30,605 bases of DNA from a virus. Location: positions 1-30,605 of the IMG/VR virus record IMGVR_UViG_3300002835_000752; one strand, written 5' to 3'. Below the pieces are notes generated by a model that worked only from the letters and a program-made list of their open reading frames with translations, made no database searches and was not told the DNA's origin. Each line of letters starts with the position of its first letter. The stretch's first letter is position 1. Below are positions 1,860-25,818 of the stretch, piece by piece. Position numbers and translations under genes: made by a program.

Positions 1860-1868
1860 TATAAATAT
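1860..1868 (-). promoter_or_regulatory. Late-promoter-like motif before the tape measure gene
   Basis: The coding strand reads ATATTTATA followed by ATA, 18 nt before the ATG at 1841 and 2 nt after a terminator hairpin. It is one of twelve such sites before genes in this window. The promoter role is inferred from recurrence and from its position after terminators. Confidence 0.6.
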
Positions 1869-1870
1869 GA

Positions 1871-1896
1871 AAAGGCATCACTTTTTAGATGCCTTT
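1871..1896 (-). terminator. Intrinsic-type terminator after the hub genes
   Basis: The coding strand forms a perfect 9-bp stem, AAAGGCATC (1896-1888) with GATGCCTTT (1879-1871), around an 8-nt loop. A short run of T closes the 3' side. The TGA stop of the upstream ORF (1880-1878) sits in the hairpin, so gene end and terminator are merged. Confidence 0.7.
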
Positions 1897-2168
1897 GTAA
1901 CATATGAAGGTACGTTTACTTTTGGTGAGTTAACAGCACCTGCTGATTTCATTGCTTTAATAGATTCTTCAACAGTATTTGTTTGAGAAGTACTATTTTT
2001 CTTTTCGTAATGTTCAAGAATTTTTTTATATGTAAATTGTCGTAACCAAACCGGCATATTATATACTGTGTTATAATCATAACCGCCTTGTCCGTAAAAC
2101 AATATTTCGTGGATTTGGGTAAATAAACTACCCCTATAATCAGGCGTCAGGCCAAAAAAAGTTAACAC
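1878..2168 (-). CDS. Small hub/tape-measure chaperone-like protein, probably expressed by +1 frameshift
   Basis: Ninety-six residues if read from GTG at 2168. It overlaps the gp26-like gene by 29 nt in the +1 frame, and no ATG or Shine-Dalgarno serves it. The core (PDYRGSLFTQIHEILFYGQG, then YNTVYNMPVWLRQFTYKKIL) is aromatic and helical, followed by a Lys/Ser/Thr-rich tail. T4 keeps gene 51, for hub assembly, next to gene 26, and this ORF holds that place, though I cannot show homology. Many tailed phages carry a frameshifted chaperone pair just before the tape measure (lambda G/GT). The T7 run inside the overlap would let a ribosome reading the gp26-like frame enter this one and make a fusion of about 341 residues. 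Independent GTG initiation remains possible. Confidence 0.7.
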   Translation of the reverse strand: MLTFFGLTPDYRGSLFTQIHEILFYGQGGYDYNTVYNMPVWLRQFTYKKILEHYEKKNSTSQTNTVEESIKAMKSAGAVNSPKVNVPSYVTKASKK

Positions 2169-2904
2169 CTATAGGTACAGTGATGTCCTCCTCAACACCA
2201 CTATCAAAAGTATAAGTATACTTTAAATTAATGCCTGGGCTGATTGAGTTAAAGTGTTCTCTAAATGCTCTTGAATCTTTAGCTAGAAAACCATATTCAA
2301 TAAATTCTCTAATAGTTTTAGGATTATAATCACCATTTACAGACAAAATAGTATGACGTAATCTTGTTGTTACTTCAGAATTACCTTTAGGATCAATTTT
2401 CTTTAAACCTTGGTTTTCTTTTTCAATCGCTTGCTCATCACCATGAGTTAATAATTTAAAAGTAATTACATTACCTGTATTAGGAAGTTTAAAAGAAAAT
2501 TCATTTTTTCCTTTTTCTGTTAATGATTTTTCATTAAGTAATTTTTCTCCTAATAATGTTAAATCAACAGTAATAATTTCTTCATTATCGCTGTATTCTG
2601 GATAGTAAGTAAATGAATAGTCTTTACCGTAACCTAAAATACGAGCAGCTAACATAATAGCGTCTTTATCACCGATTAAAAGATCACTATAATCAAATTT
2701 AGTAATAAGCATAGATTGTAATAGCTTATCAATTACAATACCTTGTTTAATATAGTTTTGATTAGTTAAAATGTCTTCTTCTCTAGCAGTCATATATTTC
2801 ATTTCAACTTTTCCAGATGCTAAAGGATGACCTTCGGGATACAGTAAGCCTTTTGAAGGCAATTCCACCATTTCTGTGGGGAATTTGAACTTATTTTCTT
2901 CCAT
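2140..2904 (-). CDS. 26: T4 gp26-like baseplate hub protein
   Basis: 254 residues. The N-terminus is highly characteristic of the T4 baseplate hub family (T4_baseplate, as I recall PF12322): FPTEMVELPSKGLLYPEGHP at residues 8-27, then VEMKYMTAREEDILTNQNYI and QGIVIDKLLQSMLITKFDYS, then an LLIGDKDAIMLAARILGYGKDY block. Hub proteins of this type act in assembling the central baseplate hub around the tape measure and tail lysozyme. T4 gp26 is slightly shorter. The gene follows its own motif copy and a strong terminator, and overlaps the next ORF by 29 nt in the +1 frame. The ATG at 2904 directly precedes the conserved N-terminal block; a second motif-like word (ATATTTATG) overlaps that ATG. Confidence 0.87.
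   Translation of the reverse strand: MEENKFKFPTEMVELPSKGLLYPEGHPLASGKVEMKYMTAREEDILTNQNYIKQGIVIDKLLQSMLITKFDYSDLLIGDKDAIMLAARILGYGKDYSFTYYPEYSDNEEIITVDLTLLGEKLLNEKSLTEKGKNEFSFKLPNTGNVITFKLLTHGDEQAIEKENQGLKKIDPKGNSEVTTRLRHTILSVNGDYNPKTIREFIEYGFLAKDSRAFREHFNSISPGINLKYTYTFDSGVEEDITVPIGVNFFWPDA
2154..2160 (-). promoter_or_regulatory. Candidate +1 frameshift slippery run (seven T on the coding strand)
   Basis: The gp26-like frame reads AAC TTT TTT TGG here. A P-site Phe tRNA can move one base forward and still read TTT, after which the frame continues as GGC CTG ACG into the downstream 96-residue ORF. The zero frame stops 12 nt further on (TGA, 2142-2140). The geometry fits a tail-assembly frameshift; no experimental evidence is available here. 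Confidence 0.45.
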
Positions 2905-2932
2905 AAATATTTTTTATAACTTTATTGTCCTA

Positions 2933-3505: not shown

Positions 3506-3514
3506 TATAAATAT
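3506..3514 (-). promoter_or_regulatory. Late-promoter-like motif before the tube gene
   Basis: The coding strand reads ATATTTATAACA, 19 nt before the ATG at 3486. It lies in the 42-bp gap between sheath and tube. Confidence 0.62.
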
Positions 3515-3528: not shown

Positions 3529-5235
3529 TTATGCTGGGAAAGTAACTCCGGTAGGTAAGATATTAAAATCCAAGTAAATGAATTCAGCAGTCTTAGTAGG
3601 TTGAATATAAATTTGACCTATTAATTGATTTCTGTCGATTACATCAGCTGTATTATTTGTATCATCCATTACCACTTTAAAAGCATATAATCCTTGACGT
3701 TGTTGTACTGATTCTAAGTATGGATTAACTTGGCTTAAGAAACTATTTCTAGTAGCTATTGTATTTTGTTCAAATACTAAATTTAAAGCAACTTGAGAAA
3801 TATAAGACTTAAGTTCAATTAACAATCTACGAACATTTACACGATCTAAAGCAGAAGCTTTAGTTTGTAATGTTTTTTGTCCATAAACTACTACTCCTGT
3901 TCCAGGGAAAGAAGCAATTGGATTAACTTTACCATTATATAAAATATCTCTGTTTGCTTGAGATAATTTTTGTTCAGGACGAATTACTTGACTTAATCCA
4001 CCTCTATTAATACCAGCAGGAGCAAACCAAGGTTCAGCAGCATTATCGTTAAAAGCATAAACACCTCCAATTACTGTTGAAGCAGGAACCCAAACGTTTT
4101 TACCTAAATCAGGATCTTGAACTTGAACCCAAGGCCAGTAAGAAGCAGCATACGAAGTATTACGAGTAGCAGCTTGAGCAACTACAGCAGCAGCTGTTGC
4201 TGTACCATAAGCTACAGGATCAAGAACATAAATATTATCTCCTCTGTTTTGGGTATTTGAAATGATTGAAGTACAAACTCCAGTATGTAATGAATCAATC
4301 AAACCAGGAGTTAACACTACTTTAAACTTATAATCATCAGTATTAGCTAACAAATTAACCATGTTAGCATAACTACCACTGCTTACACCTTGAGTGTTTG
4401 TAGCAGTGATTGTTTGATACATGTTAGCCGCACCAAAAGTTCCAATAGCACCACCGAATGATCCACTAGCAACTAAAGGAATTGAAGATGTAAATTGGTT
4501 TTTAGGAGTACCATTATTATCAAAATAATCAGGAGTTAATAAATTAACAGATTTAACTCGTACATAAGAAGAAGCATTAGGATAAGATCCAGATACTTCA
4601 ACTTGGTTAGTAGTTGAATTATAATTTAAAGTATAATCACCAAGTATTTTAGAAATAAAATTAGGAGCTTTAGGATCTAATGATAAGTTAGTCCAAGTTT
4701 CTAATACTGTTTTAGCGTTAGTTAAATCATCTCCTCTTCTAATTAATAAATCAAAAGTACCTGAACTTGTACTAGAATTAACTACTTCCCATCTAATATT
4801 ATCAGATGAACCGCTTGCTAATTGACCATTAGAACCTTCAGTAGAAGTACTATTCATAATAGTACCTTTAGAAATTGTTTCTAATACAATTGAAGGTTGA
4901 GTTGCTGCTAAATTTGAAGCTGAGATTGCTGAGCTTGATGCAAATGAGTAAGAACCTGTAACTACACGAGCTACTAATAAACTAGTTCCACCGTTAGCGA
5001 AATAGTTGTAAGCAGCTATTGAAGTAAAATATGTGTAAGCATCGCTTCCACTTACAAAAGTAGTTCCGAATTTGTTTTGATACTCGCTGTAAGAGGTAAC
5101 CAATGTTGGAATTTCAACAGGACCTTTTACAGTTGGGCCTATAATTGCGGCTCCTACAGTTGCGGGTTGTGCTGTGATAAATGATTGGTCATTTTCTCTA
5201 GCAAGTACACCGGGTGATATTAATGTTTCTGCCAT
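3529..5235 (-). CDS. 18: Contractile tail sheath protein (T4 gp18-like)
   Basis: 568 residues, shorter than T4 gp18 (659). The N-terminus (ISPGVLARENDQSFITAQPA, then VGAAIIGPTVKGPVEIPTLV, YSEYQNKFGT and an NYFANGGTSLLVARV block) and C-terminus (LDRVNVRRLLIELKSYISQV, VFEQNT, QRQGLYAFKVVMDDTNNT, ending TAEFIYLDFNILPTGVTFPA) are textbook sheath sequence. The variable middle (~residues 90-310) is the protruding, poorly conserved part. The WFAPAGINRGGL motif near residue 405 is typical of the family. The sheath polymerises around the tube and contracts on infection. Its own motif lies 28 nt upstream. The ~106-bp gap before it (5236-5341) is AT-rich with no further gene. Confidence 0.95.
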   Translation of the reverse strand: MAETLISPGVLARENDQSFITAQPATVGAAIIGPTVKGPVEIPTLVTSYSEYQNKFGTTFVSGSDAYTYFTSIAAYNYFANGGTSLLVARVVTGSYSFASSSAISASNLAATQPSIVLETISKGTIMNSTSTEGSNGQLASGSSDNIRWEVVNSSTSSGTFDLLIRRGDDLTNAKTVLETWTNLSLDPKAPNFISKILGDYTLNYNSTTNQVEVSGSYPNASSYVRVKSVNLLTPDYFDNNGTPKNQFTSSIPLVASGSFGGAIGTFGAANMYQTITATNTQGVSSGSYANMVNLLANTDDYKFKVVLTPGLIDSLHTGVCTSIISNTQNRGDNIYVLDPVAYGTATAAAVVAQAATRNTSYAASYWPWVQVQDPDLGKNVWVPASTVIGGVYAFNDNAAEPWFAPAGINRGGLSQVIRPEQKLSQANRDILYNGKVNPIASFPGTGVVVYGQKTLQTKASALDRVNVRRLLIELKSYISQVALNLVFEQNTIATRNSFLSQVNPYLESVQQRQGLYAFKVVMDDTNNTADVIDRNQLIGQIYIQPTKTAEFIYLDFNILPTGVTFPA

Positions 5236-5263: not shown

Positions 5264-5272
5264 TATAAATAT
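5264..5272 (-). promoter_or_regulatory. Late-promoter-like motif before the sheath gene
   Basis: The coding strand reads ATATTTATAATA, 28 nt before the ATG at 5235. The leader also contains AGACAATTCTA (5260-5250), a word that recurs in the leader of the gene at 10269. Confidence 0.62.
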
Positions 5273-5341: not shown

Positions 5342-5881
5342 TTATTGTAAATAAACTACAATAAAATTAACATCATCATTTGTAGAAGCACCTATATCTT
5401 TAATAAGAAATGCACCTGAGCCAGGGGTTGCTTCTTGTACCATTAAAGCATTATTACCTGGTGATGTTGAACCTGATGCTTTAGTTGCTGTGACCCAATA
5501 TTGTGTTTGGAAGGTTTTGCCACTTAAAATTGTAGGGTTGATAAGTGAAGAAACACCAGATGCCATTGTGATGGAACCAGCTAATAGACCTAATCCTCCA
5601 GGTAAAAAATTACCTCCTCCACCTTTTGGACTATAAACAGGAACACCTGTATTAATATATTGAGCTCCAGATGAAGTACCAGCTAATGAACCTGTAAAAG
5701 ATCCAGTATAAGAAGAGGCAGTCACACTACCTGTAATTTTCATACTGCCTGTTAATACAAATGAACCTGATAATGTAACATCATATTGTACTAGGCCAGT
5801 GAATGCGTCTACTGATTGTGTAACGTGCCCTACTTGAATTGTAGCGCCTGTTGTTATGCCGGTTTTAGATAATACAGCCAT
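5342..5881 (-). CDS. Short fibre-like structural protein with GSFTGS repeats
   Basis: 179 residues. The N-terminus (MAVLSKTGITTGATIQVGHV) may be an attachment segment. It is followed by short beta repeats typical of the fibre proteins here (LSGSFVLTGSMKITGSVTAS, then SSYTGSFTGSLAGTSSGA at ~75-93), a glycine-rich patch (PKGGGGNFLPGGLGLLAG) and a compact C-terminal domain ending DDVNFIVVYLQ. Composition resembles the larger fibres downstream of gp15, so this is probably a minor fibre or tail decoration. I do not recognise a named family. The motif ends only 4 nt before the ATG, which would give a very short or absent leader. Confidence 0.75.
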   Translation of the reverse strand: MAVLSKTGITTGATIQVGHVTQSVDAFTGLVQYDVTLSGSFVLTGSMKITGSVTASSYTGSFTGSLAGTSSGAQYINTGVPVYSPKGGGGNFLPGGLGLLAGSITMASGVSSLINPTILSGKTFQTQYWVTATKASGSTSPGNNALMVQEATPGSGAFLIKDIGASTNDDVNFIVVYLQ

Positions 5882-5885
5882 TTGT

Positions 5886-5894
5886 TATAAATAT
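5886..5894 (-). promoter_or_regulatory. Late-promoter-like motif, almost abutting a start codon
   Basis: The coding strand reads ATATTTATAACAAATGG, so only 4 nt separate the 9-mer from the ATG at 5881. It lies 10 nt after a terminator. Confidence 0.6.
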
Positions 5895-5904
5895 TTACAA
5901 GAAA

Positions 5905-5934
5905 TAAAAAAAGCACCCCATAAAGAGGTGCTTT
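5905..5934 (-). terminator. Intrinsic terminator after the 85-aa gene
   Basis: The coding strand forms an 8-bp stem, AAAGCACC with GGTGCTTT (5934-5927 and 5917-5910), with a loop of about 9 nt. The T-run continues to about 5905. It is followed at once by the motif for the gene at 5881. Confidence 0.85.
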
Positions 5935-5955
5935 AAAAATAATTTAAAATTTAAA

Positions 5956-6213
5956 TTACATTGTAAAGGGAATAAATACTCCGTTTTCAATATCAATTTG
6001 ACCTTCACCATATTTAGATTGAATTTCTACGGCAAAAGCATTTTGTTCTTCATTTGAAGAAGCAACGTCTTGTTTAATTTTGTCGCGAGTTAAATCTAAA
6101 TTGATTTTTTGAATATCAATTTGACCTAAAATGTTAATAAGTTCTTGATTTTTTTGTTGAAATTCTTTTACTTTAGAAATTTCTTCGATTGTAAGTGTAA
6201 CTTGATTTTCCAT
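5956..6213 (-). CDS. Small helical protein of unknown function
   Basis: 85 residues. Predicted mostly helical and coiled-coil: LTIEEISKVKEFQQKNQELI from residue 6, then Lys/Asp/Gln-rich helix, ending in YGEGQIDIENGVFIPF, a short hairpin-like tail. I cannot name the family. Like the 69-, 81- and 86-residue ORFs in this window it opens with an L-T/S-x-E-E-I type helix and sits among fibre genes. A fibre-assembly chaperone or minor tail subunit is a reasonable guess but not shown. It has its own motif 5 nt upstream and its own terminator, so it can be expressed alone. Confidence 0.8.
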   Translation of the reverse strand: MENQVTLTIEEISKVKEFQQKNQELINILGQIDIQKINLDLTRDKIKQDVASSNEEQNAFAVEIQSKYGEGQIDIENGVFIPFTM

Positions 6214-6218
6214 ATGAT

Positions 6219-6227
6219 TATAAATAT
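6219..6227 (-). promoter_or_regulatory. Late-promoter-like motif, 5 nt before a start codon
   Basis: The coding strand reads ATATTTATAATCATATGG. The 9-mer ends 5 nt before the ATG at 6213, again implying a nearly leaderless message if it is a -10 type element. Confidence 0.58.
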
Positions 6228-6252
6228 ATTAGTTATTTATTAAAATTCCAAA

Positions 6253-6591
6253 TTAACATGTAAATGTATCTAAAATTTCTCCTGAGGTATTTACTTGTAC
6301 TGCTATATCACCTCCGTTATTTATTTTCCACCACCCAAAAACACCATTAAACGGTATAGTTCCGGCTGAGTCAAAATAAATAAAATCACCTATTCCAGCG
6401 GTTCCTGTATACCAAATATCAATAGGCATAGGCATTGGTGGAGGTGTTGGTGGTGGTTGTGGGGGAGGATTACAAGCATCAGGTCCATTACCTGCGGGAT
6501 AATAATTAGGATCATCATATAGAATTCCCTGTGTTAAAACTATACCTCCTCTAGAAGATGCTATTATACCTGTAAATGTTCTTGAAAACAT
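6253..6591 (-). CDS. Small protein with polyproline linker and C-terminal beta domain
   Basis: 112 residues in two parts joined by a proline-rich linker at residues 42-56 (PPPQPPPTPPPMPMP). The N-terminal ~38 residues (FSRTFTGIIASSRGGIVLTQ) may anchor it. The C-terminal ~55 residues (IWYTGTAGIGDFIYFDSAGT, FGWWKINNGGDIAVQVNTSG) look like a small beta fold and end in cysteine; a second cysteine is at 40. I do not recognise the family. It is separated from the upstream fibre gene by one base (TAATATG), so the two are probably co-translated. It may be a tip or spacer protein for that fibre. Confidence 0.72.
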   Translation of the reverse strand: MFSRTFTGIIASSRGGIVLTQGILYDDPNYYPAGNGPDACNPPPQPPPTPPPMPMPIDIWYTGTAGIGDFIYFDSAGTIPFNGVFGWWKINNGGDIAVQVNTSGEILDTFTC

Positions 6592-6592
6592 A

Positions 6593-7450
6593 TTATGCTA
6601 GATCTCCAAATACGTACCATTCATCAACTGCTCGTTTTACTAAAGTTGCAGCCGAATATTGACTTGCTAAATTTAATAACCCACCAGCACTTCTTAAAGT
6701 AACACCTCCAGCGGCTGCTATATTAGTAGGACCTGTGTTTTGTTGTACAACCATAAATTGAGTACCCACAGCTATAGGAACAGATGCGTTTGTTGGAACT
6801 GTAAGTGTGTTTGGAGCAGCACTATTCATTTCAATTAATTTATCAGCATCTGTTGATGCTAAAGTATAACTACCTCCTTGGTTATTAAAAGATATTACGG
6901 GGGAAGATGTTAAAACATTACCTGATGTATCAACAGATAAAACAGCTACTGCTGTACCGGGAAATGCTGATACACTGTTGTATCCGGGTAATGCCATTTG
7001 TAGGTTATGCATACTCCACCAAGCAACTTCTCCAGTACTTCCAGCATTTGTACCTTTTAGTATTCTTAATCTGTTTTGATATAGATCAATAAATGAAGCT
7101 GAAGTGTAAGTTCCTCCGGGAGCGCTAAATCCAATTTGTCCTCCTTCATTTGAAGTATCACGAGCTCCTAAAGTTAAAGTATTTTCATTGGGTCCTAATG
7201 AACCAGATCCTATAGTTAAACTTCCTGTAATTAATACTCTTTGATTTAATGTATTAACAAAAGATGCTGTACTAGCAAAAGATGCTGAAGTGACACTTCC
7301 TAATAGATTTTGTGCTGTTGTTGCAAATGAAGCAGTACCCGCAACGCTACCTGATAATGATCCTGTAAATGAAGTAGCTATTATACTACCTGATATTAAT
7401 GTTGATCCTGATACAATCAGGCCTTTACGTGCTACGAATTCTCTTGCCAT
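6593..7450 (-). CDS. Fibre protein, MAxExVxRxGLxVSGS adapter type
   Basis: 285 residues. The N-terminus MAREFVARKGLIVSGSTLIS is nearly the same as that of the 774-residue protein just upstream, suggesting both dock on the same partner. Residues ~25-75 are GSFTGS/SASFAST repeats. The C-terminal ~90 residues (NTLTVPTNASVPIAVGTQFM ... YSAATLVKRAVDEWYVFGDL) are a recognisable phage fibre tip domain that recurs in tail proteins of many phages. Likely role: receptor binding or tail decoration. Unlike its neighbours it has a good Shine-Dalgarno (AAAGGA, 8 nt before the ATG) and no motif copy upstream. Confidence 0.85.
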   Translation of the reverse strand: MAREFVARKGLIVSGSTLISGSIIATSFTGSLSGSVAGTASFATTAQNLLGSVTSASFASTASFVNTLNQRVLITGSLTIGSGSLGPNENTLTLGARDTSNEGGQIGFSAPGGTYTSASFIDLYQNRLRILKGTNAGSTGEVAWWSMHNLQMALPGYNSVSAFPGTAVAVLSVDTSGNVLTSSPVISFNNQGGSYTLASTDADKLIEMNSAAPNTLTVPTNASVPIAVGTQFMVVQQNTGPTNIAAAGGVTLRSAGGLLNLASQYSAATLVKRAVDEWYVFGDLA

Positions 7451-7458
7451 TTATTTTT

Positions 7459-7464
7459 TCCTTT
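7459..7464 (-). promoter_or_regulatory. Shine-Dalgarno sequence, exceptional in this window
   Basis: The coding strand AAAGGA lies 8 nt before the ATG at 7450. Most other starts here have only A/T-rich leaders, so this site stands out and supports the chosen start. Confidence 0.55.
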
Positions 7465-7492
7465 CATTTTCCAGGATGTTTAATATAATGTA

Positions 7493-7520
7493 ATAACTTG
7501 GTTTTAAATTTCCAAGTTAT
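7493..7520 (-). terminator. Hairpin at the end of the 774-aa fibre gene (weak terminator)
   Basis: A 9-bp perfect stem (ATAACTTGG with CCAAGTTAT) with a 10-nt loop includes the TAA stop of the fibre gene. The 3' side is TTACATTATATT, not a T-run, so it may stall, process or protect RNA rather than terminate efficiently. Confidence 0.45.
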
Positions 7521-9841
7521 ATTGTACGAACTAGTGTTCTAATTGTCCAAGTACCTGATGGAGATAATGCTAATAATCTAACGTTACCTGCATTTATATC
7601 TGCTGTTAAGATTACCATTGAAGTATTTCCAATATCTAAAGTAGATGTTTCAGTAAATTCAGCAGTAGTACCATTAGTAACTACCATTACTGTTCCTGCT
7701 CTCATATCTGTAGTACTTTGTTTAATAACGTAATCAAAGAACACCGCATCTACGTTAGTTGCTGAAACTGAAGCTACTTGGGTTAAGGTTGATATTGCTT
7801 GAGGACCAATCTGTTGTTTATCAATAATACTCTTTTGAACCCCAGAACCTGAAATTAATAAATCACCTGTAGTAACTATATTTCCAGTAAATGTTTTAAC
7901 ACCTGCTATAGATTGGTCTCCAGTTGTTCTTAATACTGTAGAGTCAACTGCAGCGGTTACACCTGTTGAACCATTATATGAAGTTCCACTTAATCCATCA
8001 CCTATTGTTAATGTACCTAAATTATTACCTAGTGTAATACCTGAAATTGTGCTAGCTGCTAATTTTGAAACAGCAATTGCTGCTGAGTTGTTAATATCTG
8101 CGTTAACAATTACTCCTGAACCGATTGCTGCTACACCTGCTGATGTGATAGTAATATCACCACTTACAGTACTAAAGGCTGAACTTGAGAAATAAGCAGC
8201 CATTGAACCTGAATCAACAGTGAATGTTCTAGCGGCAGCACCTGTAAATGTTCCACCTGAAGCAAGACCTGATCCTGCTGTTAAAGCATTACCTACTTGA
8301 GTAGCAGTGGTAGCTGTTGTAGCATTACCTGATAATGCCGCTGTAATAGTACCCGCTGAAAAATTTCCAGAAGCATCACGTGCAACTACTTTAGAGGCTG
8401 TGTTAGCATCTGTAGCATCTACGGCAAATGTTCTAGCAGTAGCACCGGTATATGTTCCTCCAGAAGTTATATAAGAACCAGCAGTTAAAGCAGCTAAAGT
8501 ACCCCCTAATGTTACACCAGATATTGTATTTGCTGCTAATTTAGAAACAGCAATTGCTGCTGCTGCATTAATATCAGCATCTACTATTACTCCGGACCCA
8601 ATTGATGCTACACCAGCTGATGTAATACTAATATCACCACTTACTTGAGCAAATGTAGAACTAGAGTAAAAAGACAACATTGAACCGGAGTTAACATTTA
8701 GTTTTCCAGTAACAGGAGTTAATCCTTGTCCTGCTAATCCTGTTGCTAAATCGGTTTGAGTTGTGTAAACACTTGAACCACCACCATTTTGAGTATAATA
8801 CCTAAAGTTGGCATCAGGAGTAGTACCAGGTGAAGTTGGGAATGAAGCAGCAACACCTGTAAGTGCTGAACCGTCTCCTTTAAATGAACCAGTAAATGAA
8901 CCTGTTAATATTGTACCTGGAGTTGTAGAAGTTACAGCAGTTACTAAAATTGTTCCTGCTGAGAAGTTACCTGAAGCATCACGCGCAACAATTTTAGAAG
9001 CTGTGTTAGCATCTGTAGCGTCTACTGCAAATGTTCTTGCTGTAGAACCATTAAATGTACCTCCTGATGTTAAATAAGAACCAGCAGTTAATGCTGCTGT
9101 AGTTGCTAAAGCGGTAGTAGCATTTGAAGCCCAAGAAGCAGTACCTGTTAAAGCACCTACAAAGGTAGTAGATGTAACAGAAGATAAACCAGCAATAGTA
9201 GTTGCTGAGCTTCCTAAAGAAATAGCTGTTGAACCTACAGTAACTGAACTGTTTGCTAATTGAGCATTTAAAATACCAGCGGTAGCAGATAACTGAGTAG
9301 TTGTAATTCCTGATAATCTAGCTAATGGAACAGTACCTGAAGCTAAGTTATCAGCGTTTAAAGCAGTTAATGCAGTACCAGTACCTGTAAAAGATGAAGC
9401 TGAAACCGCACCTATAATTCCTAATGGTTTGTTAAATTCCATTCTAGAGCTACCATTACTCCAAGTAATAGAAGCAGCAGCACCTGAAATAAATAAACCA
9501 CCACCATCAGCATCTGCTGAGGTTGTAGAACCAGAAGCAATAACAACTAATTTATCCTTAATAAAAATATCAGTAGTGTTAATAAACGTAGTAGTACCTG
9601 ATACTGTAAGGTTACCTGTTACTGTTGTATTACCATTTACTGTTAAACCAGCAAAAGAAGGTGAACTTCCTGAGTTTACTGATTGGTTTATAGAAAAAGA
9701 AGAGTTTGAAAGAACACCATTAGCTCCTATACTTATTAAATTACCAGAACCGGCAGATAATCCTCTTACTGTTAAACTTCCTGATAAGTCTGAACTTCCT
9801 GAGACTACTAGACCTCTTCGAATTACATATTCATTAGCCAT
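7517..9841 (-). CDS. Long repeat-built tail fibre protein
   Basis: 774 residues. The N-terminal adapter MANEYVIRRGLVVSGSSDLS is shared with the next gene. A TVTGNLTVSGTTTFINTTDI module at 74-93 recurs in the 400-residue protein. Two longer repeat types fill residues ~250-606: the A type (ALTAGSYLTSGGTFNGSTAR, FAVDATDANTASK, ARDASGNFSAGTI) and the B type (SGDISITSAGVASIGSGVIV, ADIN, AIAVSKLAA). The C-terminal ~100 residues (FDYVIKQSTTDMRAGTVMVV, LDIGNTSMVILTADI, TWTIRTLVRTI) match the tip of the 132-residue protein just upstream. Overall a trimeric-fibre style adhesin: adapter, repetitive shaft, binding head. A motif copy lies 14 nt before the ATG. Confidence 0.88.
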   Translation of the reverse strand: MANEYVIRRGLVVSGSSDLSGSLTVRGLSAGSGNLISIGANGVLSNSSFSINQSVNSGSSPSFAGLTVNGNTTVTGNLTVSGTTTFINTTDIFIKDKLVVIASGSTTSADADGGGLFISGAAASITWSNGSSRMEFNKPLGIIGAVSASSFTGTGTALTALNADNLASGTVPLARLSGITTTQLSATAGILNAQLANSSVTVGSTAISLGSSATTIAGLSSVTSTTFVGALTGTASWASNATTALATTAALTAGSYLTSGGTFNGSTARTFAVDATDANTASKIVARDASGNFSAGTILVTAVTSTTPGTILTGSFTGSFKGDGSALTGVAASFPTSPGTTPDANFRYYTQNGGGSSVYTTQTDLATGLAGQGLTPVTGKLNVNSGSMLSFYSSSTFAQVSGDISITSAGVASIGSGVIVDADINAAAAIAVSKLAANTISGVTLGGTLAALTAGSYITSGGTYTGATARTFAVDATDANTASKVVARDASGNFSAGTITAALSGNATTATTATQVGNALTAGSGLASGGTFTGAAARTFTVDSGSMAAYFSSSAFSTVSGDITITSAGVAAIGSGVIVNADINNSAAIAVSKLAASTISGITLGNNLGTLTIGDGLSGTSYNGSTGVTAAVDSTVLRTTGDQSIAGVKTFTGNIVTTGDLLISGSGVQKSIIDKQQIGPQAISTLTQVASVSATNVDAVFFDYVIKQSTTDMRAGTVMVVTNGTTAEFTETSTLDIGNTSMVILTADINAGNVRLLALSPSGTWTIRTLVRTI
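8024..9094 (-). repeat. Internal duplicated shaft modules in the 774-aa fibre
   Basis: A-type copies: 9094-8948, 8491-8345 and a partial one at 8287-8213. B-type copies: 8689-8495 and 8212-8024. Copies A1 and A2 share the identical peptide FAVDATDANTASK, and B is adjacent to A in both places (B-A, then A-B). This indicates duplication with later divergence of the shaft. Confidence 0.8.
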
Positions 9842-9855
9842 ATTTTACTATTTGT

Positions 9856-9864
9856 TATAAATAT
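9856..9864 (-). promoter_or_regulatory. Late-promoter-like motif before the 774-aa fibre
   Basis: The coding strand reads ATATTTATAACA, 14 nt before the ATG at 9841, within the 29-bp gap to the previous gene. Confidence 0.6.
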
Positions 9865-9870
9865 GTGGCT

Positions 9871-10269
9871 TTAAAGTATCTTCGCAAGGGTTTTAATAAC
9901 CCACATAGTAGGTCCTACAACATCTGCTATAATTTCTACGTTACTAGCTAAAATTCTACACTGTAAAATTACGTCTGTTGTATTACCTAAGTCTACAGTA
10001 GTAACTTCTGTAAAGTTAATATTAGAACCATCCCAAACGGCCATAATATTACCTACTCGATAATTTAAGTTGCTTTTTATTAAATATTCAAAATTCACTC
10101 CGTTACCATCAGTGATAGGAAAACTACCTATTACATTAGTTCCAGCACTTACTAAACTGTTTTCGTATGTTCTTATTTTAGCCGCATTAAGAGTAACATC
10201 TCCAGTTACTGTTAAACCAGATAAAGAGGCATTAGAGCCAGATATTATGACTTTTTTCCACGACGGCAT
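9871..10269 (-). CDS. Minimal fibre: SWKK adapter fused to the shared tip domain
   Basis: 132 residues. The N-terminus MPSWKKVIISGSNASLSG matches that of the 400-residue protein (MASWKKVIVSGSDA). The C-terminal ~90 residues (VNFEYLIKSNLNYRVGNIMA, VTTVDLGNTTDVILQCRI, MWVIKTLAKIL) match the tip of the 774-residue fibre. The shaft between is almost absent, one TGDVTLNAA-like unit. It therefore looks like a fibre reduced to adapter plus head, or a chimera of two fibre types. The product may compete with or cap the longer fibres. It has an unusually long, structured 73-nt leader. Confidence 0.8.
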   Translation of the reverse strand: MPSWKKVIISGSNASLSGLTVTGDVTLNAAKIRTYENSLVSAGTNVIGSFPITDGNGVNFEYLIKSNLNYRVGNIMAVWDGSNINFTEVTTVDLGNTTDVILQCRILASNVEIIADVVGPTMWVIKTLAKIL

Positions 10270-10342
10270 ATTTCTTATTATGGTTGGTTACTAGAATTGT
10301 CTAGTCCACTTCCCTTACGGGCCTATAATATAATCATAAATA
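10270..10342 (-). other. Structured leader of the 132-aa fibre gene
   Basis: This 73-nt gap is the only sizeable leader among the fibre genes. The coding strand contains CCCGTAAGGG (10321-10312) and CTAGACAATTCTAG (10304-10291), which can form two small hairpins. It also carries the word AGACAATTCTA found in the sheath leader. Confidence 0.35.
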
Positions 10343-10343
10343 T
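10335..10343 (-). promoter_or_regulatory. Late-promoter-like motif (ATATTTATG variant), distant from its gene
   Basis: The coding strand reads ATATTTATGATTATATTATAG, split here as ATATTTATG then ATTATATTATAG. It overlaps the TAA of the upstream gene and lies 65 nt before the ATG at 10269. The TATATTATA that follows could be an ordinary -10. Confidence 0.45.
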
Positions 10344-10603
10344 TAGGAAATAGCAGATGTGCGTGATGTTTTTTTAGCTTCTTTTACTAAAAGGGCTTCT
10401 AATTGACGTTGTCTTTCTTCTTCTGCTTGAACTCGTTCTTGTTCTTGCATCTGAAGGTTCATCTGGATTTGAAAAGCGGCTTCATCTAATTTATTTTGTA
10501 AAGCTGCTACTAACCTAGCATTCCTTCCAGTAATAGAAACCACATCCACAGATTGTAGGATTATAGTGATTTCATCAAGTGTTAATTCTATTGGATATTG
10601 CAT
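10343..10603 (-). CDS. Small coiled-coil protein of unknown function
   Basis: 86 residues. The first half is a helical domain (PIELTLDEITIILQSVDVVS, then NARLVAALQNKLDEAAFQI). The second half is a highly charged coiled coil, Gln/Glu/Arg-rich (QMQEQERVQAEEERQRQLEA), ending Lys/Ser/Thr-rich. It starts 2 nt after the stop of the 69-residue ORF, so the two are one translational unit between fibre genes. No family recognised. A fibre-trimerisation chaperone or a structural spacer would fit. Confidence 0.78.
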   Translation of the reverse strand: MQYPIELTLDEITIILQSVDVVSITGRNARLVAALQNKLDEAAFQIQMNLQMQEQERVQAEEERQRQLEALLVKEAKKTSRTSAIS

Positions 10604-10605
10604 AA

Positions 10606-10815: not shown

Positions 10816-10829
10816 AAAAAGTTAAAATA

Positions 10830-12032: not shown

Positions 12033-12036
12033 GATT

Positions 12037-12044
12037 TATTTATA
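12037..12044 (-). promoter_or_regulatory. TATAAATA box in the T4 late-promoter orientation
   Basis: The coding strand reads ATATATAAATAAATCATGG. TATAAATA ends 4 nt before the ATG at 12032. It is the only gene-start site in this orientation; the others read TATTTATA. The region is very AT-rich, so this may be chance. Confidence 0.35.
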
Positions 12045-12055
12045 TATTATACATA

Positions 12056-14662: not shown

Positions 14663-14665
14663 AAT

Positions 14666-15352: not shown

Positions 15353-15356
15353 AATT

Positions 15357-19067: not shown

Positions 19068-19076
19068 TATAAATAT
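19068..19076 (-). promoter_or_regulatory. Late-promoter-like motif before the neck operon
   Basis: The coding strand reads ATATTTATAACAG, 13 nt before the ATG at 19054, in the 41-bp gap after the 794-residue fibre gene. It could drive the seven genes down to 13290, which have no further motif copy between them. Confidence 0.62.
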
Positions 19077-19095: not shown

Positions 19096-21480
19096 TTAAG
19101 CTAATGAACTTGATCTCCAACGACCAGCCATCCACACAAACATCACAGGTTGTCCAGTAACTGTTCCAAATAGGAATTGTCCGTCTGAACCACTAAATGT
19201 TGGAACTGCTGATTGTGTTGGTGATAAAATTGCTCCTGATGGTGATGTTATTTGTACTAAACTAGAAGTATAAACATTTATAACATCTGTTTGGTTATGT
19301 CTTATATTAAAACTACTACCGGTTGCTGAAGATGAAGGTGAAGTTACAAGTGACCATACTCCTGGTTGAGTACTTGATCCTGATACTGGACCATTCATTA
19401 TAATGGAAGCAAATCCATTTGGAGCTGCTGGTAATCTTAAGTTTTCACTGTAAAAGTTTCCTTGAGGATTCATTATAACAGCTGTTCCTCTAATATCAAA
19501 GACACCACCTTGACCACCAATAGCTGAACCTGTATTAAAAGCAAAAGACATGCTTGTAGTACCTGCTACTTGTTGTGCTACAAAATTTGTAGTTGATCCT
19601 GAAGTGAATTTTAAGAAGTCAGTAGAGACATCTAAAGATAATCCTACAGATCCTGTTTCTAATCTTAATGAACCTGTACCACTAAATGAACCGGTAAATG
19701 AACCTGATGTATTTGAAGAGGATATATTTAAATTTGTTAATCCTGAACCGTTTCCAATAAATGAACCTGTAAATGAACCTGTTAATCTACTTCCTGTAAT
19801 AGACCCTGAATTTATAATGTTTCCGCCAAATGTTACTTGACCTCCACCTGATTGAATATTAACACTTGAGCCTGTTAGTAATAAACTAGAATCTTTATCA
19901 CCAATAGTTAATGTAGTTCCTGATGTGCCTGCAATTTTGCTATTAAAATCAAACAGTAATGAAGCTGAACCTGAACCATCTCCAATGTATATTTCGTTTG
20001 TATTATTACCAATACTAACGTTACCACTTACTGCTGATAGTACTAAATCACCAAAATTATCTAATTGAATACTAGCTCCTGGAGTTGATGTGCTTCCTGT
20101 AAAGAAAATACCACTATTATTGTTTAAATTTAATCTACTACCTGAAATTAATCCAAAGCTGGCTGTGTTAGATTGAACAATATTACCACTTATAGAAGAA
20201 GTTACATATAAGTTATTACCTATTAAAGTAGATGAACTTATAACACTTGCTGTAATATTACCATTATTAATTTGAGCAAAAGATGCTGTAAATGGTCCTA
20301 AATTAACTTGACTACCAGTAATAAGTAAAGTAGTGTCACTAGAACCTACTGTTAAAACTACATTCTTACCAGTTTCACCTTTAATAGCACCATTAAAATC
20401 AAATACTATGTTTGCTGAACTAGTGCCATCACCGATGTAAATATCGTTTCTATCTTTAGCTAAATAAACACTACCAGAAACACTATCAATAACAAGGTTT
20501 CCTAAATTATCTAAAGTAATACTTCCGCCAAGATCTAAATAACTAGAAGTATAATTAGTACCTCCTGTTAAAGTAAATATATTGTTAAAAGTTGTTAATA
20601 CTGGGTTTGATCCAGAAACTGAACCAGAATATGATCCTGATTGGAATATAATTCCATTGTATTTTGAACCTGTAAATGATGAACTAATAGCAAAAACAGT
20701 ACTACTAACTACAGCAAACAATAAACTAGAACTTAATACTGTGTTTACTTTAGTTTTTAAGTTATCAAAAGCACTAGCTGATACTGAACCGGTAGCAAAG
20801 TAATAAACACTTCCTGTGTCAGGAGGTAATGAACCTGTTTCATCATATCCTGAAGCAATGAACACCCAATTTGTACTAGCAGAAACAATTCTAAAAGCAT
20901 CACCTGAATTATCACCAAAAGGAATTAATGAACCAGTATCTACAGAATTTCTAGCTCTTAAACCAGCAGAAGCTAATGTGTTATCATTAAAATAAATAGC
21001 TCCATTAGGTTGTAAAGCAATGTAAGAACTAGTATAATTTTCTACTACAAGAGTATTAATATTTACATTACTAGCACTTATAGTACTAGCTGTTATAAAA
21101 GAAGCATTAAAACTACCAGTTATAGAACCACTTGTGATTTTAGCAAAACTTGAACTAAACGGTCCTATAGTTAAATTACTACTAGTAATATTAACAGAAC
21201 TTCCTGAAATGTTTAATCTGGTGTCACCTGATCCTATTACTATTTCAGCTCCTGATCCAGGTGCTGCCTTAATAGCTCCGTCTTTATCAAATATTAAATT
21301 AGCGCTAGCTGTACCATCACCAATATAAATGTCATTATCACCAGGGCCAAAAATAACTTGGGAAGAAGATAATACTAATCTTCCCAAATTATCTAATTCA
21401 ATAGTAGCTCCAATGGTTCCGGCACTTCCGGAAAATTGGATTATGCTACTGGATGGTTTTATTCTTATATCTTTTCCCAT
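19096..21480 (-). CDS. Long fibre protein in the fibritin (wac) position
   Basis: 794 residues. A 75-residue module (IELDNLGRLVLSS, then NDIYIGDGTASANLIFDKDG, GSGDTRLNISGSSVNI) occurs three times at ~24-98, 319-393 and 468-542, separated by other fibre sequence. GSFTGSFIGNGSGLTNLN follows at ~568-585. The last ~45 residues (SAVPTFSGSDGQFLFGTVTG, MFVWMAGRWRSSSLA) match the end of the 259-residue fibre. It lies just before the gp13-like gene, where T4 has wac, the neck whisker. By position it may be a collar fibre, but sequence similarity to T4 fibritin is not visible. ATG overlaps the previous stop (TAATG). Confidence 0.82.
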   Translation of the reverse strand: MGKDIRIKPSSSIIQFSGSAGTIGATIELDNLGRLVLSSSQVIFGPGDNDIYIGDGTASANLIFDKDGAIKAAPGSGAEIVIGSGDTRLNISGSSVNITSSNLTIGPFSSSFAKITSGSITGSFNASFITASTISASNVNINTLVVENYTSSYIALQPNGAIYFNDNTLASAGLRARNSVDTGSLIPFGDNSGDAFRIVSASTNWVFIASGYDETGSLPPDTGSVYYFATGSVSASAFDNLKTKVNTVLSSSLLFAVVSSTVFAISSSFTGSKYNGIIFQSGSYSGSVSGSNPVLTTFNNIFTLTGGTNYTSSYLDLGGSITLDNLGNLVIDSVSGSVYLAKDRNDIYIGDGTSSANIVFDFNGAIKGETGKNVVLTVGSSDTTLLITGSQVNLGPFTASFAQINNGNITASVISSSTLIGNNLYVTSSISGNIVQSNTASFGLISGSRLNLNNNSGIFFTGSTSTPGASIQLDNFGDLVLSAVSGNVSIGNNTNEIYIGDGSGSASLLFDFNSKIAGTSGTTLTIGDKDSSLLLTGSSVNIQSGGGQVTFGGNIINSGSITGSRLTGSFTGSFIGNGSGLTNLNISSSNTSGSFTGSFSGTGSLRLETGSVGLSLDVSTDFLKFTSGSTTNFVAQQVAGTTSMSFAFNTGSAIGGQGGVFDIRGTAVIMNPQGNFYSENLRLPAAPNGFASIIMNGPVSGSSTQPGVWSLVTSPSSSATGSSFNIRHNQTDVINVYTSSLVQITSPSGAILSPTQSAVPTFSGSDGQFLFGTVTGQPVMFVWMAGRWRSSSLA
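19855..21411 (-). repeat. Three copies of the IYIGDG module in the 794-aa fibre
   Basis: The 75-residue copies lie at 21411-21187, 20526-20302 and 20079-19855. Each has I-x-LDN-x-G-x-LV, N-x-IYIGDG-x-x-SA, a Phe-Asp pair and a terminal TGS/SGS-x-VN. They are diverged at the DNA level, so the triplication is not recent. Confidence 0.8.
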
Positions 21481-24400
21481 TAGAATATTCTAGCGCCTTT
21501 TAATCTAAATTTAGTTTCATTAATTGGTTGAGTATAGGTTGTTTTAGCCATCCATTTATCTCCTCTATCAAAATATCTTTCATTAAAAGTATTAGTAAAT
21601 ACTTGTGCTTTATCCGGATCAGATACATTTAATTTACTTGATATATTATTAAATGCGGTGTATCCACTACTGTATATCATTCCTGCTAAAGAAATTTGGA
21701 AATGACCAGAACCTGTAAAGCTATAAGTTTTATTAAATGATACAGGAGTTAAAGATCTAGGTAAAGTACTAGTAAATAAAGCACTTCCGCTAATTAAATC
21801 TACTTCATTACCATCTTTAGTAACCATCATATAAATACTTCCACTAGCTACTTGTTCATTTTGGTTTACAATATTAAATGTTTGATAGTAGTTAAAGTTT
21901 AAATCAAAACTAGCAGATACTCCTTCTTCTAAATAAAAAGAAGCTGCTAATTTTGGTGTTCTCCAGTCTCCATTTGCTCCTGTTTGTCTATAAAATCTAT
22001 AGTATTCTTCTTCTGCTTTTTTAACCCACCATCCTGAAGAGTTTGTCCAAACATCGTATCCTAATCTATTATAATCTTTTATATAATTAGTAATATACCA
22101 TGTTGGTTTTGCCATACCGTAGTTTATAGCTGATATAGATGTAACAATTGTTGGTGTTATTCGTCTTGCATCCATTCCTCCTCTTTTTGGTAAAATAAAA
22201 GGTGTAGTAAATGGTTTATCCATAAAAGTTGAAGCAAAGAAAACAGATCCACCTTGGTTTATATAACCAAATCGGTTATTATCTACTATATAATTAACGT
22301 TAGTACCTATATTATCTGTAGATATACTAGGAGCAAATTGTCCTGTTACTCCTTCAGCTGCATTTCTTCTTATTACAAATAGAGTTGAATATGGAGTAGA
22401 ATAAACAATATTAGCATTAGCAGTAGTAAATGATGGTAATGGTAAGTTTCCTCCTAATACATAATTATAAGAAAATACATTTAAACTAAAATGAGCAGTC
22501 ATTCCTATTATACCTCCAATTCCATAGTATACATTTCCTGTACTAACAAGAGGTGAGGATGTTGCTGGTGTGTCTGAATTTTGGTAAATTTGGAAAAATC
22601 CAGAAAATAAATTATGTCTATCTGCCATTCCTGCTTTTCCGGAATGGAACATAATACCTTGAGAGTTATTAAAACAATTATAAAAAGTACACCCTTGAAC
22701 TAATCCCATATAGTTAAACCATCCATTGTATTGAATAGCAAATCCTGAGTATAGATAATTAGTAGATGTTCCAATAAATGGATAACTACCATTTACATGT
22801 TGAAAACCAACATTATTAAATAACATTCTTCTTACTGGTTGGTTAGTGTTACCTAATACTGCTATTCTTCCTGTATTCCATGATCCAGTATGAGCAAAAG
22901 ATCCTGAAAAGTTAAGTTGTTTGTTTAATTTAACAACATATGCTCCTTTTTCAATAGTTCCTTCTTCAAAAGGATAATCTAAATAAATAACATTTCCTGC
23001 ACTTTTACTAACAATTTTATATTCTTGAGTAAATCTATCTAAGAAACTAGAAGTATTAGCACTAGAACTAACAAACAATAAAGCTGAGTAGTTTCTAGCT
23101 TCAGCTATTGGTTGCATATTATTTCTAGAAATAATAGCTAATGAATCACCAATATTTAAGTCAGAAGCATTGTTTACTTGTAAACTATTAGAAACATTAT
23201 ATCTTACTCTATATCCTCTAAAGTTATTAAAAATATTTGCGGTTCTTGTAGTACCATTGGTTTCAATTCTTAAAAATCTATAAGTATGAGGACCTCCTAC
23301 ATTAAAGTTTCTAAAGGTTTCTGTATTTGCACGGAATCTTTCATCAATAATAGAAGATGTTAACGGAATCCAATTAGAAGCTGTTACAAAAGAACCAGTA
23401 ATATCATTACTTCCTGAGAATTGTATTCCTCGAGAAGCTGTCATGTTTTGTAAATTAAGAGAAAAGTTTTCTAAAAATGCTACTTTATTAAAAGTTACAG
23501 GTTGACCAAAATCAATAATTACACTTCTAGTAAAAGCCGTTCCTAAATCATAGGTTTGGTTCACATCATTTGTTAATCTCCAAAACTGACCAGCATCTAT
23601 TGTTTTACTACCTGAACTGTTGTTACCGAATATATAAGGGAAACTACCAGATATATTTGTGCTTCCACTTAATGGATTAGTTGTTGCGTATTCTGCTGCT
23701 CCTCTGTATGCAAAAGTATAATCTAAATGCTCTAAAGGATCAGTAACTATTGAAAACAACTTAGTTACTCTATTACCAGCAGCATGGGTATATTCAATAC
23801 CAGTTTCATACATTATTTGACCAGCAGAAGCCGTCACTGGTGAGTCTAGGGTTATTAATTGACCTTTTTGGTATACTTTATATCGAGTACATACTAAACA
23901 GTTATTACCGTTTGTATATAAACCTACTCTACCCCATAAAGTACCAGCAATAGCTACTTCATTTAATATTTCAACATCATTAACATATCCTTTTATAAAA
24001 CCACGAGATGCTTCTAAAGTAATTTTCTTAAATCCATCTTGAGAAAAACTACCTGTATAACTACCATTATATATTGTGTTATTATAGTTTTTCTGTCTTA
24101 AGTAAAATCTTTGGTTTTGAGGATCTATTACAAATGCTGTTCTTAGTGGTTGTGTTGTAGGAGCTGATAAAGGTGAAGTTGAATCAAAGTCTGATTGAGG
24201 TTCTGATTGGATGTATACACCATATTCTGCTCTACTACCAGATCCATTAGTAACGTTTCTTAAATTAGAAACCCAAGCCTCTACTTTAACATTATCTAAC
24301 ATAATGTTTTTTACAAACAAATGTCGGTATTGATTAGTAGTAAATTGAGTTAAACCTAATCCAGGAAATAATGTCCAGTCATTAAAATAAAAAGAACGAG

Positions 24401-25556
24401 TAATATCTGTATCCCATTCAGATAATGTTGATCCTGATTGGAAATTATAGTCAGCTAATTCTAAATCATATACAGAAGCGGTTAATATTGTTCTATATTG
24501 ATTTCCAATTAATATTTTATCTCCTGCTTTAAAACGTTCTTCATCAATAACTATTTGAGTAGCTGATTGAGTTGTTAGGATTTTTCCTTCTAAACCGTTT
24601 AATCGTTTTATATATAATCTTTTATTAGGAGTATCTTTATAAGTTACTTCTACAACTTCATCCCAAGAAGAAATTTGATTTACATAAGGAGCTCTTAAAC
24701 CTGCTAAAACTCCATTATCTGTACGAGATTGAGTTAAAAATGTTTCTCCTATAAATAATGGATCTTCAACTTCAAAGTTTGAAACATTATTTACAGTAAT
24801 ATAATAATCCCCAACAGCAGCACTTTGTGATAAAATAGAATTTGTTCTTACCTCAGGACCATCTATAATAAGATGTTGCATTGGGAAGTTGTTAACAATT
24901 AATCCACTAGTATTTAATAAGTTACCAGTTTCTGTACTAGCTGTTGGATAGTTTTTATTAAATCTAAATAAAGCAGAACCTGTCATTCTAAAGGTTCCAT
25001 CATTTAATACAACATATCCGTTAGGAGCAAGTACAGATCCACTTCTAAGTAATAATTCACCACCATTTTCAATAGTTAATGCTGGTATTCCAGATGATGA
25101 TGTAGATAATACTATTTCTCCACTAGAACTAGGAATAAATATTTGTCCTGGTTTGAAATGAATAACTGATGCATTTAGAATTAATCCTCCTTTTTTAGAA
25201 GGTAAAGATTCAGTAATTGGATAAATATCTAGACTCCAAGAATAATAAGAAGTATCAATAGAACAACTAATAAATTGGGTTGCACTACATGTTACATAAT
25301 TAATTTTAAGTTCTTCGTCTCTATCTGTATAAGTATAAAATGAATTTGAAACAGGAAAACCTATAGTAGAAGCTACGTTTAATGTTTGTTGTCCTACCCA
25401 AGGTTGGTAACCTGCTGCTAAGTTAATAGTAGTTCTTAAACCTCTAATAAAAACCTGATCACTGGATGTTGGGACAATACCTCCATACCATACAGAAGTA
25501 TCATTCCAACTAGCGGAATCAAAGTAAGAGCCTGATATTGAGAATATTTGGGCCAT
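21480..25556 (-). CDS. Giant multidomain adhesin, paralogue 2
   Basis: 1358 residues. N-terminus G8-like: SASWNDTSVWYGGIVPTSSD at 14-33 followed by beta-helix-like strands to ~235. A hinge (VGDYYITVNNVSNFEVED, 248-265), a KILTTQSATQIVIDEERFKA block at 325-344, a LamG/concanavalin-like region ~385-565, a discoidin-like (F5/8 C) region ~590-785 ending HTYRFLRIETNGTTR, then a right-handed beta-helix-like stretch ~880-1100 and a C-terminal domain ending KFRLKGARIF. No signal peptide. Likely a large virion adhesin or tail spike with possible polysaccharide binding; no catalytic residues can be assigned. It parallels the 1427-residue gene throughout. Possible alternative: glycan depolymerase. Confidence 0.82.
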   Translation of the reverse strand: MAQIFSISGSYFDSASWNDTSVWYGGIVPTSSDQVFIRGLRTTINLAAGYQPWVGQQTLNVASTIGFPVSNSFYTYTDRDEELKINYVTCSATQFISCSIDTSYYSWSLDIYPITESLPSKKGGLILNASVIHFKPGQIFIPSSSGEIVLSTSSSGIPALTIENGGELLLRSGSVLAPNGYVVLNDGTFRMTGSALFRFNKNYPTASTETGNLLNTSGLIVNNFPMQHLIIDGPEVRTNSILSQSAAVGDYYITVNNVSNFEVEDPLFIGETFLTQSRTDNGVLAGLRAPYVNQISSWDEVVEVTYKDTPNKRLYIKRLNGLEGKILTTQSATQIVIDEERFKAGDKILIGNQYRTILTASVYDLELADYNFQSGSTLSEWDTDITRSFYFNDWTLFPGLGLTQFTTNQYRHLFVKNIMLDNVKVEAWVSNLRNVTNGSGSRAEYGVYIQSEPQSDFDSTSPLSAPTTQPLRTAFVIDPQNQRFYLRQKNYNNTIYNGSYTGSFSQDGFKKITLEASRGFIKGYVNDVEILNEVAIAGTLWGRVGLYTNGNNCLVCTRYKVYQKGQLITLDSPVTASAGQIMYETGIEYTHAAGNRVTKLFSIVTDPLEHLDYTFAYRGAAEYATTNPLSGSTNISGSFPYIFGNNSSGSKTIDAGQFWRLTNDVNQTYDLGTAFTRSVIIDFGQPVTFNKVAFLENFSLNLQNMTASRGIQFSGSNDITGSFVTASNWIPLTSSIIDERFRANTETFRNFNVGGPHTYRFLRIETNGTTRTANIFNNFRGYRVRYNVSNSLQVNNASDLNIGDSLAIISRNNMQPIAEARNYSALLFVSSSANTSSFLDRFTQEYKIVSKSAGNVIYLDYPFEEGTIEKGAYVVKLNKQLNFSGSFAHTGSWNTGRIAVLGNTNQPVRRMLFNNVGFQHVNGSYPFIGTSTNYLYSGFAIQYNGWFNYMGLVQGCTFYNCFNNSQGIMFHSGKAGMADRHNLFSGFFQIYQNSDTPATSSPLVSTGNVYYGIGGIIGMTAHFSLNVFSYNYVLGGNLPLPSFTTANANIVYSTPYSTLFVIRRNAAEGVTGQFAPSISTDNIGTNVNYIVDNNRFGYINQGGSVFFASTFMDKPFTTPFILPKRGGMDARRITPTIVTSISAINYGMAKPTWYITNYIKDYNRLGYDVWTNSSGWWVKKAEEEYYRFYRQTGANGDWRTPKLAASFYLEEGVSASFDLNFNYYQTFNIVNQNEQVASGSIYMMVTKDGNEVDLISGSALFTSTLPRSLTPVSFNKTYSFTGSGHFQISLAGMIYSSGYTAFNNISSKLNVSDPDKAQVFTNTFNERYFDRGDKWMAKTTYTQPINETKFRLKGARIF

Positions 25557-25558
25557 TA

Positions 25559-25804
25559 TTATCCTATTTTTTGTTTAATTTTTTGTAAATATGCTAAAGC
25601 AACAAATACTGAAGGGTCAGTATTAGGGTGTTTAGATTCTTCTTCTAGTTCTAAAATCTTTTGATCAATTTCTTCTATTGAAAATGAAACTTGGTTATTT
25701 GTAGATAAAACTTGAGATTCTTTATTGTAATCCCAAAGTCCATAATACATAGAACTATATACATACGTCCATCTTTCACCTAAAATTTGAATTACATCAT
25801 TCAT
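25559..25804 (-). CDS. Small helical protein between the two giant adhesins
   Basis: 81 residues. The N-terminal half (IQILGERWTYVYSSMYYGLW) is aromatic; the second half is helical and charged (FSIEEIDQKILELEEESKHP, then VFVALAYLQKIKQKIG). Function unrecognised. It lies 2 nt before the 1358-residue gene and has a motif copy 5 nt upstream, so it probably leads the message for that gene. Position and helicity suggest an assembly factor for the giant protein, but that is guesswork. Confidence 0.75.
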   Translation of the reverse strand: MNDVIQILGERWTYVYSSMYYGLWDYNKESQVLSTNNQVSFSIEEIDQKILELEEESKHPNTDPSVFVALAYLQKIKQKIG

Positions 25805-25809
25805 ACACT

Positions 25810-25818
25810 TATAAATAT
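25810..25818 (-). promoter_or_regulatory. Late-promoter-like motif, 5 nt before a start codon
   Basis: The coding strand reads ATATTTATAAGTGTATG. The 9-mer ends 5 nt before the ATG at 25804, in the 31-bp gap between the two giant adhesin units. Confidence 0.58.

Follow-up and report, generated by a model that had tools for sequence, protein, structure and literature searches.

The nine-base element ATATTTATR precedes many genes of the viral fragment IMGVR_UViG_3300002835_000752 (30,605 bases, GC ~32%), and this whole stretch of DNA is referred to here as the window. The element is probably the -10-type late promoter in a large clade of T4-like myophages that infect Bacteroidetes, read by the host polymerase with a phage sigma factor that is related to T4 gp55 and belongs to the family of gp118 from Flavobacterium phage vB_FspM_immuto (hereafter immuto). 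Our computations show the motif along with its orientation, placement and conservation, the absence of any -35 element, a bimodal spacing to start codons, homology of the candidate protein to sigma domain 2, and gene order.

We hypothesize that the promoter, (A/c)TATTTATAA(T/c)A(A/g)A, spans about -13 to +1 and has no -35/-33 element. Host RNA polymerase carrying a gp118-family sigma would open it and start transcription at a conserved A ~13 nt from its first base. For part of the late genes this start would fall on the A of the ATG or 1-3 nt from it, giving leaderless mRNAs, and for the remaining late genes it would lie ~6-26 nt upstream of the ATG. In the immuto clade, the sigma gene would close an operon under host-like early promoters (TTG-N20-TATATTTAGG), and across the group a late promoter directly after the sigma gene could provide the handover from early to late expression.

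The box in the window and in related phages

All convincing genes of the window are on the - strand, and the proteins they encode include a T4-type tail sheath, a tail tube, a baseplate hub, a tape-measure-like protein and a head-tail adaptor. Within the phage collection searched, the closest isolate is immuto (sheath identity 56%), a 160-kb T4-like myophage with gp20-, gp23- and gp17-type genes and a family-A DNA polymerase; many fragments in IMG/VR are closer relatives of the window than immuto. Kinship with immuto suggests that the host of the window phage belongs to the Bacteroidetes.

ATATTTATR occurs 15 times on the - (coding) strand of the window and not at all on the + strand, compared with 4.4 copies expected on both strands together after shuffling and a maximum of 9 in 100 shuffles. 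The non-coding part amounts to 734 bases (2.4% of the window), yet it holds 12 of the 15 copies (binomial p ~1.5e-17). Many tightly packed genes within the window operons have no box. A preliminary description of this DNA had placed the element before twelve named gene starts, always in one orientation and almost always in a gap, with a few further copies inside genes. The counts agree with it on orientation and placement, and all twelve sites exist, 4-65 nt upstream of the gene starts. Its account needs correction at two copies: 10841-10849 is at the end of the preceding gene and 2902-2910 is on an ATG. The copies within genes are at 4227-4235, in the sheath gene, and at 29576-29584, in gene 25836-30119 (both on the - strand), and neither is taken as a promoter.

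Conservation was assessed in 83 related contigs (1.64 Mb) with 883 regions upstream of predicted genes. The most over-represented 8-mer in these regions is ATATTTAT, present in 369 of the 883 against 28.5 expected under a second-order Markov model, and its reverse complement is found in only 13. Intergenic DNA of the relatives (196 kb) contains 496 forward and 25 reverse copies, and their coding DNA (1448 kb) contains 109 and 74. An equal density within genes and in both orientations, the pattern that the preliminary description regarded as damaging to its proposal, is thus not what is found. The bias follows the coding strand, at 16:1 in immuto and at 32:4, 20:1 and 15:0 in the relatives labelled G001, G002 and G003. 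Members of 76 protein families are preceded by the motif. Virion genes that carry the box are those for sheath, tube and hub, the terminase gene likewise carries it, and most of 72 sheath homologues have ATATTTAT or CTATTTAT within 70 nt upstream. When a late region of T4 was passed through the same pipeline as a control, the commonest coding-strand 8-mer was TATAAATA, so the pipeline reads T4 in its known orientation.

A candidate sigma factor and the order of probable early and late promoters

A gp55-like sigma gene, which the preliminary description had suggested seeking beyond the window, was found in relatives with a gp55 profile and hhalign. In immuto, the single match to the gp55 profile phrog_234 is gp118, a "hypothetical protein", and this match is weak (E 0.008). 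Relatives of gp118 are encoded in at least 600 IMG/VR stretches, and the family is strongly conserved, among the most conserved proteins of the phage group. Searches with gp118 alone against Pfam, PHROG and PDB gave weak or no matches, and family profiles were needed. Among 38 family members, 26 matched Sigma70_r2 (best 9e-5) and 18 matched phrog_234 (best 5e-4). Compared by hhalign, the family and a ten-member gp55 alignment agree with E = 5e-6 (86%) and are collinear from the N-terminus through domain 2, a stretch of 108 columns; the core of the family, FDPSRGAKAYSYFGTIVKRWLILYN, resembles sigma regions 2.3-2.4. Of the top 50 PDB fold matches to an AlphaFold model of gp118 (pLDDT 79), the majority are sigma factors, each match being weak (Foldseek best E 0.06). 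From these profile and fold comparisons, gp118 is likely a remote homologue of gp55 and an unannotated sigma factor. It is the likely cognate reader of the box. We would guess that its C-terminal third may be a sigma-4-like domain.

No gene for the RNA polymerase beta' subunit was found in seven records, for which the controls were good, and the host core RNA polymerase is therefore the likely enzyme. A search for a phage single-subunit RNA polymerase yielded no match, but its control yielded none as well. A gp45-like sliding clamp is encoded in G018 (4262-4756, E 5e-7), with an orthologue in G001 (95730-96470). In both of these members of the window's lineage the clamp gene adjoins groES/groEL.

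The sigma stop codon has a late box no more than ~20 nt away in each of immuto, G015, G016, G017 and G018. In the immuto clade, the sigma gene is the last of an operon with early-type promoters, which in immuto, G015 and G016 are 2-2.4 kb upstream of it. The early-type promoters of immuto are host-like and occur 16:0 on the coding strand. Flavobacterial sigma-A promoters have TTG at -33 and TAnnTTTG at -12 to -5 (PMC9723704), a pattern that the immuto early promoters follow except for their final TTTAG and that the late box does not. This distinguishes two promoter classes, the late one being without the -33 element and two key bases, and the TTG-N20 class of immuto, seen as TTG-N20-TATATTTAGGTAT between 20 and 76 kb, is a probable set of host-type early promoters. 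The two classes are also distributed unevenly: in the linear coordinates of the immuto record, the sigma gene has 22 of 23 early promoters to one side of it and 19 of 28 late boxes to the opposite side (p = 2e-6). The sigma gene is present in those contigs from the window's lineage that extend to its locus, and G017 combines on one contig a window-type sheath (61%), the sigma gene and motifs at 29:1.

Form of the proposed promoter, alternative explanations and predicted sites

The consensus given above comes from 445 unique sites, 82% of which have A at position 13. Their positional profile contains no conserved element 20-45 nt upstream, that is, neither a -35/-33 element nor a TTG. A -35-like TTTTTGA upstream of many sheath genes was considered and set aside, being not general and having no counterpart in the 445-site profile.

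The alternative that survives best, although we consider it unlikely, is that the host primary sigma-A reads the box as a form of TAnnTTTG, which would make a phage sigma unnecessary. The box matches the host -7 box at T-12, A-11, T-8 and T-6 (PMC9723704), and the early promoters of immuto show that host-like promoters occur in these phages. However, the box has A in place of T-7 and of G-5, and it has no -33 TTG, whereas the early promoters carry TTG at a fixed distance from their own box. In addition, a conserved sigma-like protein is encoded, with its gene at the border of early and late regions.

The spacing between box and start codon bears on both the start site and a possible role in translation. 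Counted to the ATG from the last base of the 8-mer, it is bimodal, with 63, 6, 83 and 225 genes at 2-6, 7-10, 11-15 and 16-31 nt, respectively, compared with 78, 111, 121 and 497 in the same bins for composition-matched control words (first two bins, Fisher p = 6e-14). The close-spacing class (2-6 nt) comprises members of 23 protein families, including orthologues with a common N-terminus (e.g. MAN..IWPGSSSFFPGDTPFGFYDY), and 63 of 413 boxed genes (~15%) have this leaderless-type spacing. The bimodality favours a promoter whose start lies ~13 nt downstream and which leaves part of the late genes without leaders; it speaks against a ribosome-binding site. A start ~13 nt after the first box base is the simplest reading of the spacing; genes with the ATG at that point would be leaderless, very short leaders would be avoided, and the other genes would have leaders of ~6-26 nt.

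It is very improbable that the box is a translation signal, such as a ribosome-binding or Kozak-like element of Bacteroidetes, in which Shine-Dalgarno sequences find little use. Such a role would accord with its place close before start codons, with A/T-rich leaders, and with the finding that flavobacteria do not depend on Shine-Dalgarno sequences (PMC9723704). Yet the distance to the ATG ranges from 2 to ~35 nt with a gap at 7-10 nt, whereas a ribosome-binding site needs narrow spacing, and the unboxed genes packed tightly within the window operons also speak against it.

The preliminary description had proposed that the element is related to the T4 late promoter but reversed or different. 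It does appear to be of promoter type and different from the late box of T4, but "reversed" does not hold, as the element is directional, is on the coding strand and takes the position of the T4 box relative to the predicted start. T4's own box stands in the same place relative to its start as the present box does at -13 to -5 in our register (PMC2988020). We rejected a reversed T4 box as the mechanism: the reverse-complement likeness of TATAAATA and TATTTATA needs no inversion and is a mere resemblance. The base pattern fits better with a flavobacterial -7 box, TAnnTTTG, changed at -7 and -5. On the coding strand, TATAAATA is rare upstream of genes (4 in G001 versus 29 in reverse). A related possibility, to which we give hardly any weight, is that a T4-type late box, acting from the other strand, gives rise to antisense or divergent transcripts. 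TATAAATA does occur within the reverse complement of the box; however, the genes all run one way, so that such transcripts would run backwards across the preceding genes, and it is the coding side that has the A/T-rich extension, the ATG spacing and, at the predicted start, the conserved A. Least credible of all is a site for replication, recombination or packaging, or an accident of composition, since low GC favours such words but the excess over dinucleotide and second-order Markov expectation is strong and the box is strictly tied to gene starts and absent within operons.

Several observations weigh against a late promoter read by a gp118-family sigma. The 83 related contigs are not independent of one another. 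By sequence, the gp118 family has no match in PDB, and each of its sigma matches is weak singly. The sigma gene was not found in the window, a 30.6-kb fragment, or in G001, the closest long relative of the window; the G001 contig begins just downstream of the locus, so this is not evidence of absence. It was not found in G002 either. The gp45-like clamp was not found in immuto, G015, G016 or G017, and of these the negative for immuto counts against the proposal. In the distant jumbo phage LR756508, a sigma homologue is present and the box was not found, so the box is not universal across the sigma family. In Microcystis phage Mel-JY01 (PP395634), the box occurs 16:0 upstream of genes but 51:39 genome-wide. 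Mel-JY01 has sheath and sigma homologues of the flavobacterial group and a cyanobacterium as its recorded host, which may merit a check.

If the box is a late promoter, three window genes belong to the predicted leaderless class, in which the box (on the - strand, as are all sites given here) is directly followed by the ATG: gene 5881 after ATATTTATAACAA (5886-5894), gene 6213 after ATATTTATAATCAT (6219-6227) and gene 25804 after ATATTTATAAGTGT (25810-25818). For the tape measure-like gene starting at 1841, the predicted box ATATTTATA(ATAAAC) at 1860-1868 would place the start at ~1855 with a leader of ~14 nt. Boxes at 2933-2941 and 3506-3514 precede the T4 baseplate hub-like gene (start 2904, leader ~24 nt) and the tail tube gene (start 3486, leader ~15 nt), and both have a counterpart in the same place in immuto (149759, before the hub gene, and 149171, respectively). 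The box at 5264-5272, precedes the tail sheath gene (start 5235, leader ~24 nt), and most of the sheath homologues likewise have a box upstream. Leaders of ~10, ~21, ~6 and ~9 nt are predicted for genes starting at 9841 (box 9856-9864), 10815 (box 10841-10849, in the last codons of the preceding gene), 13249 (ATATTTATG, 13260-13268) and 19054 (head-tail adaptor-like; ATATTTATAACAGAA, 19068-19076). A ATATTTATG box at 10335-10343, 65 nt upstream of gene 10269, is a weaker candidate, and a second ATATTTATG near the hub gene, at 2902-2910, contains the start codon of gene 2904 and is probably incidental.

The window has other features of interest. Three adjoining genes at 13290-15352 each encode exactly 228 amino acids with a Laminin_G_3 (concanavalin-like) match, and are probably duplicated adhesion or fibre proteins. 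Large proteins encoded at 21480-25556 and 25836-30119 end in the near-identical tags KFRLKGARIF and KFRLKGAKLF, and the proteins at 15357-16136 and 19096-21480 end in GAWRSSSLV and GRWRSSSLA; these common C-terminal tags perhaps serve in assembly or attachment. Repeats of the type SGS..TGSFTGSF, as in fibre-like proteins, are common to many window proteins (5342-17000, 19096-21480). In immuto, 18607-37015 contains the queuosine-type genes QueC, QueD, QueE, FolE and QueF together with DpdA, and several have homologues in G001 (85-90 kb). These phages may carry DNA modified with 7-deazaguanine.

Implications and comparison with known systems

Textbook knowledge of T4 late transcription comes mainly from phages that infect Proteobacteria and Cyanobacteria. 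A large environmental phage group, whose sigma gene is present in at least 600 IMG/VR stretches, appears to rely on a different box together with a sigma that annotation overlooks. We found no description of the box promoter or the sigma in the open-access literature, subscription papers being mostly outside the search; the late-promoter variant is likely new, and the probable gp55-class sigma was hitherto unannotated. With somewhat less than even confidence, we propose the full combination for a widespread T4-like clade of Bacteroidetes phages: a divergent gp55-class sigma, its C-terminus maybe sigma-4-like, together with a -10-only promoter that lets transcription of many virion genes begin at their initiation codon. 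If true, this would be a phage regulon with leaderless translation built into the late promoter, and the loss of any detectable clamp from the immuto branch would imply that activation coupled to replication has disappeared there or been replaced.

With the box, late genes and the points at which they start could be located by a simple rule in these genomes, and a candidate sigma gene can now be named. It becomes possible to test how sigma and promoter co-evolved after a shift to Bacteroidetes RNA polymerase, and leaderless late mRNAs are predicted in hosts not dependent on Shine-Dalgarno sequences. A functional sigma-promoter pair from a flavobacterial phage could be put to use for orthogonal gene expression in these bacteria.

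Relative to the host, the late box shares T-12, A-11, T-8 and T-6 with the flavobacterial sigma-A box in the register used here, and differs in having A, not T, at -7, A, not G, at -5, and no TTG at -33. Leaderless mRNAs make up 5.5% in the map of Flavobacterium psychrophilum (PMC9723704), compared with the ~15% of boxed genes that have leaderless-type spacing.

The resemblance to T4 late promoters lies in a single short A/T-rich box about one helical turn before the predicted start, without a -35 element and before virion genes. The two systems also have in common T4-like morphogenesis genes and a small phage sigma, which in the flavobacterial group shows remote homology to gp55 in its N-terminus and domain 2. 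They differ in the box itself, which is TATAAATA in T4 and (A/c)TATTTATAA in the flavobacterial group, and in the predicted leaderless state of part of the group's late mRNAs. The group's sigma, at 232-240 amino acids, has an extra C-terminal helical region relative to T4 gp55 and is too diverged for annotation. The late boxes of KVP40, 44RR and S-PM2 are highly similar, and that of Aeh1 has one a/gC change at -13/-12 (PMC2988020). The late box can thus drift among T4-type phages, although none of these four has TATTTATA.

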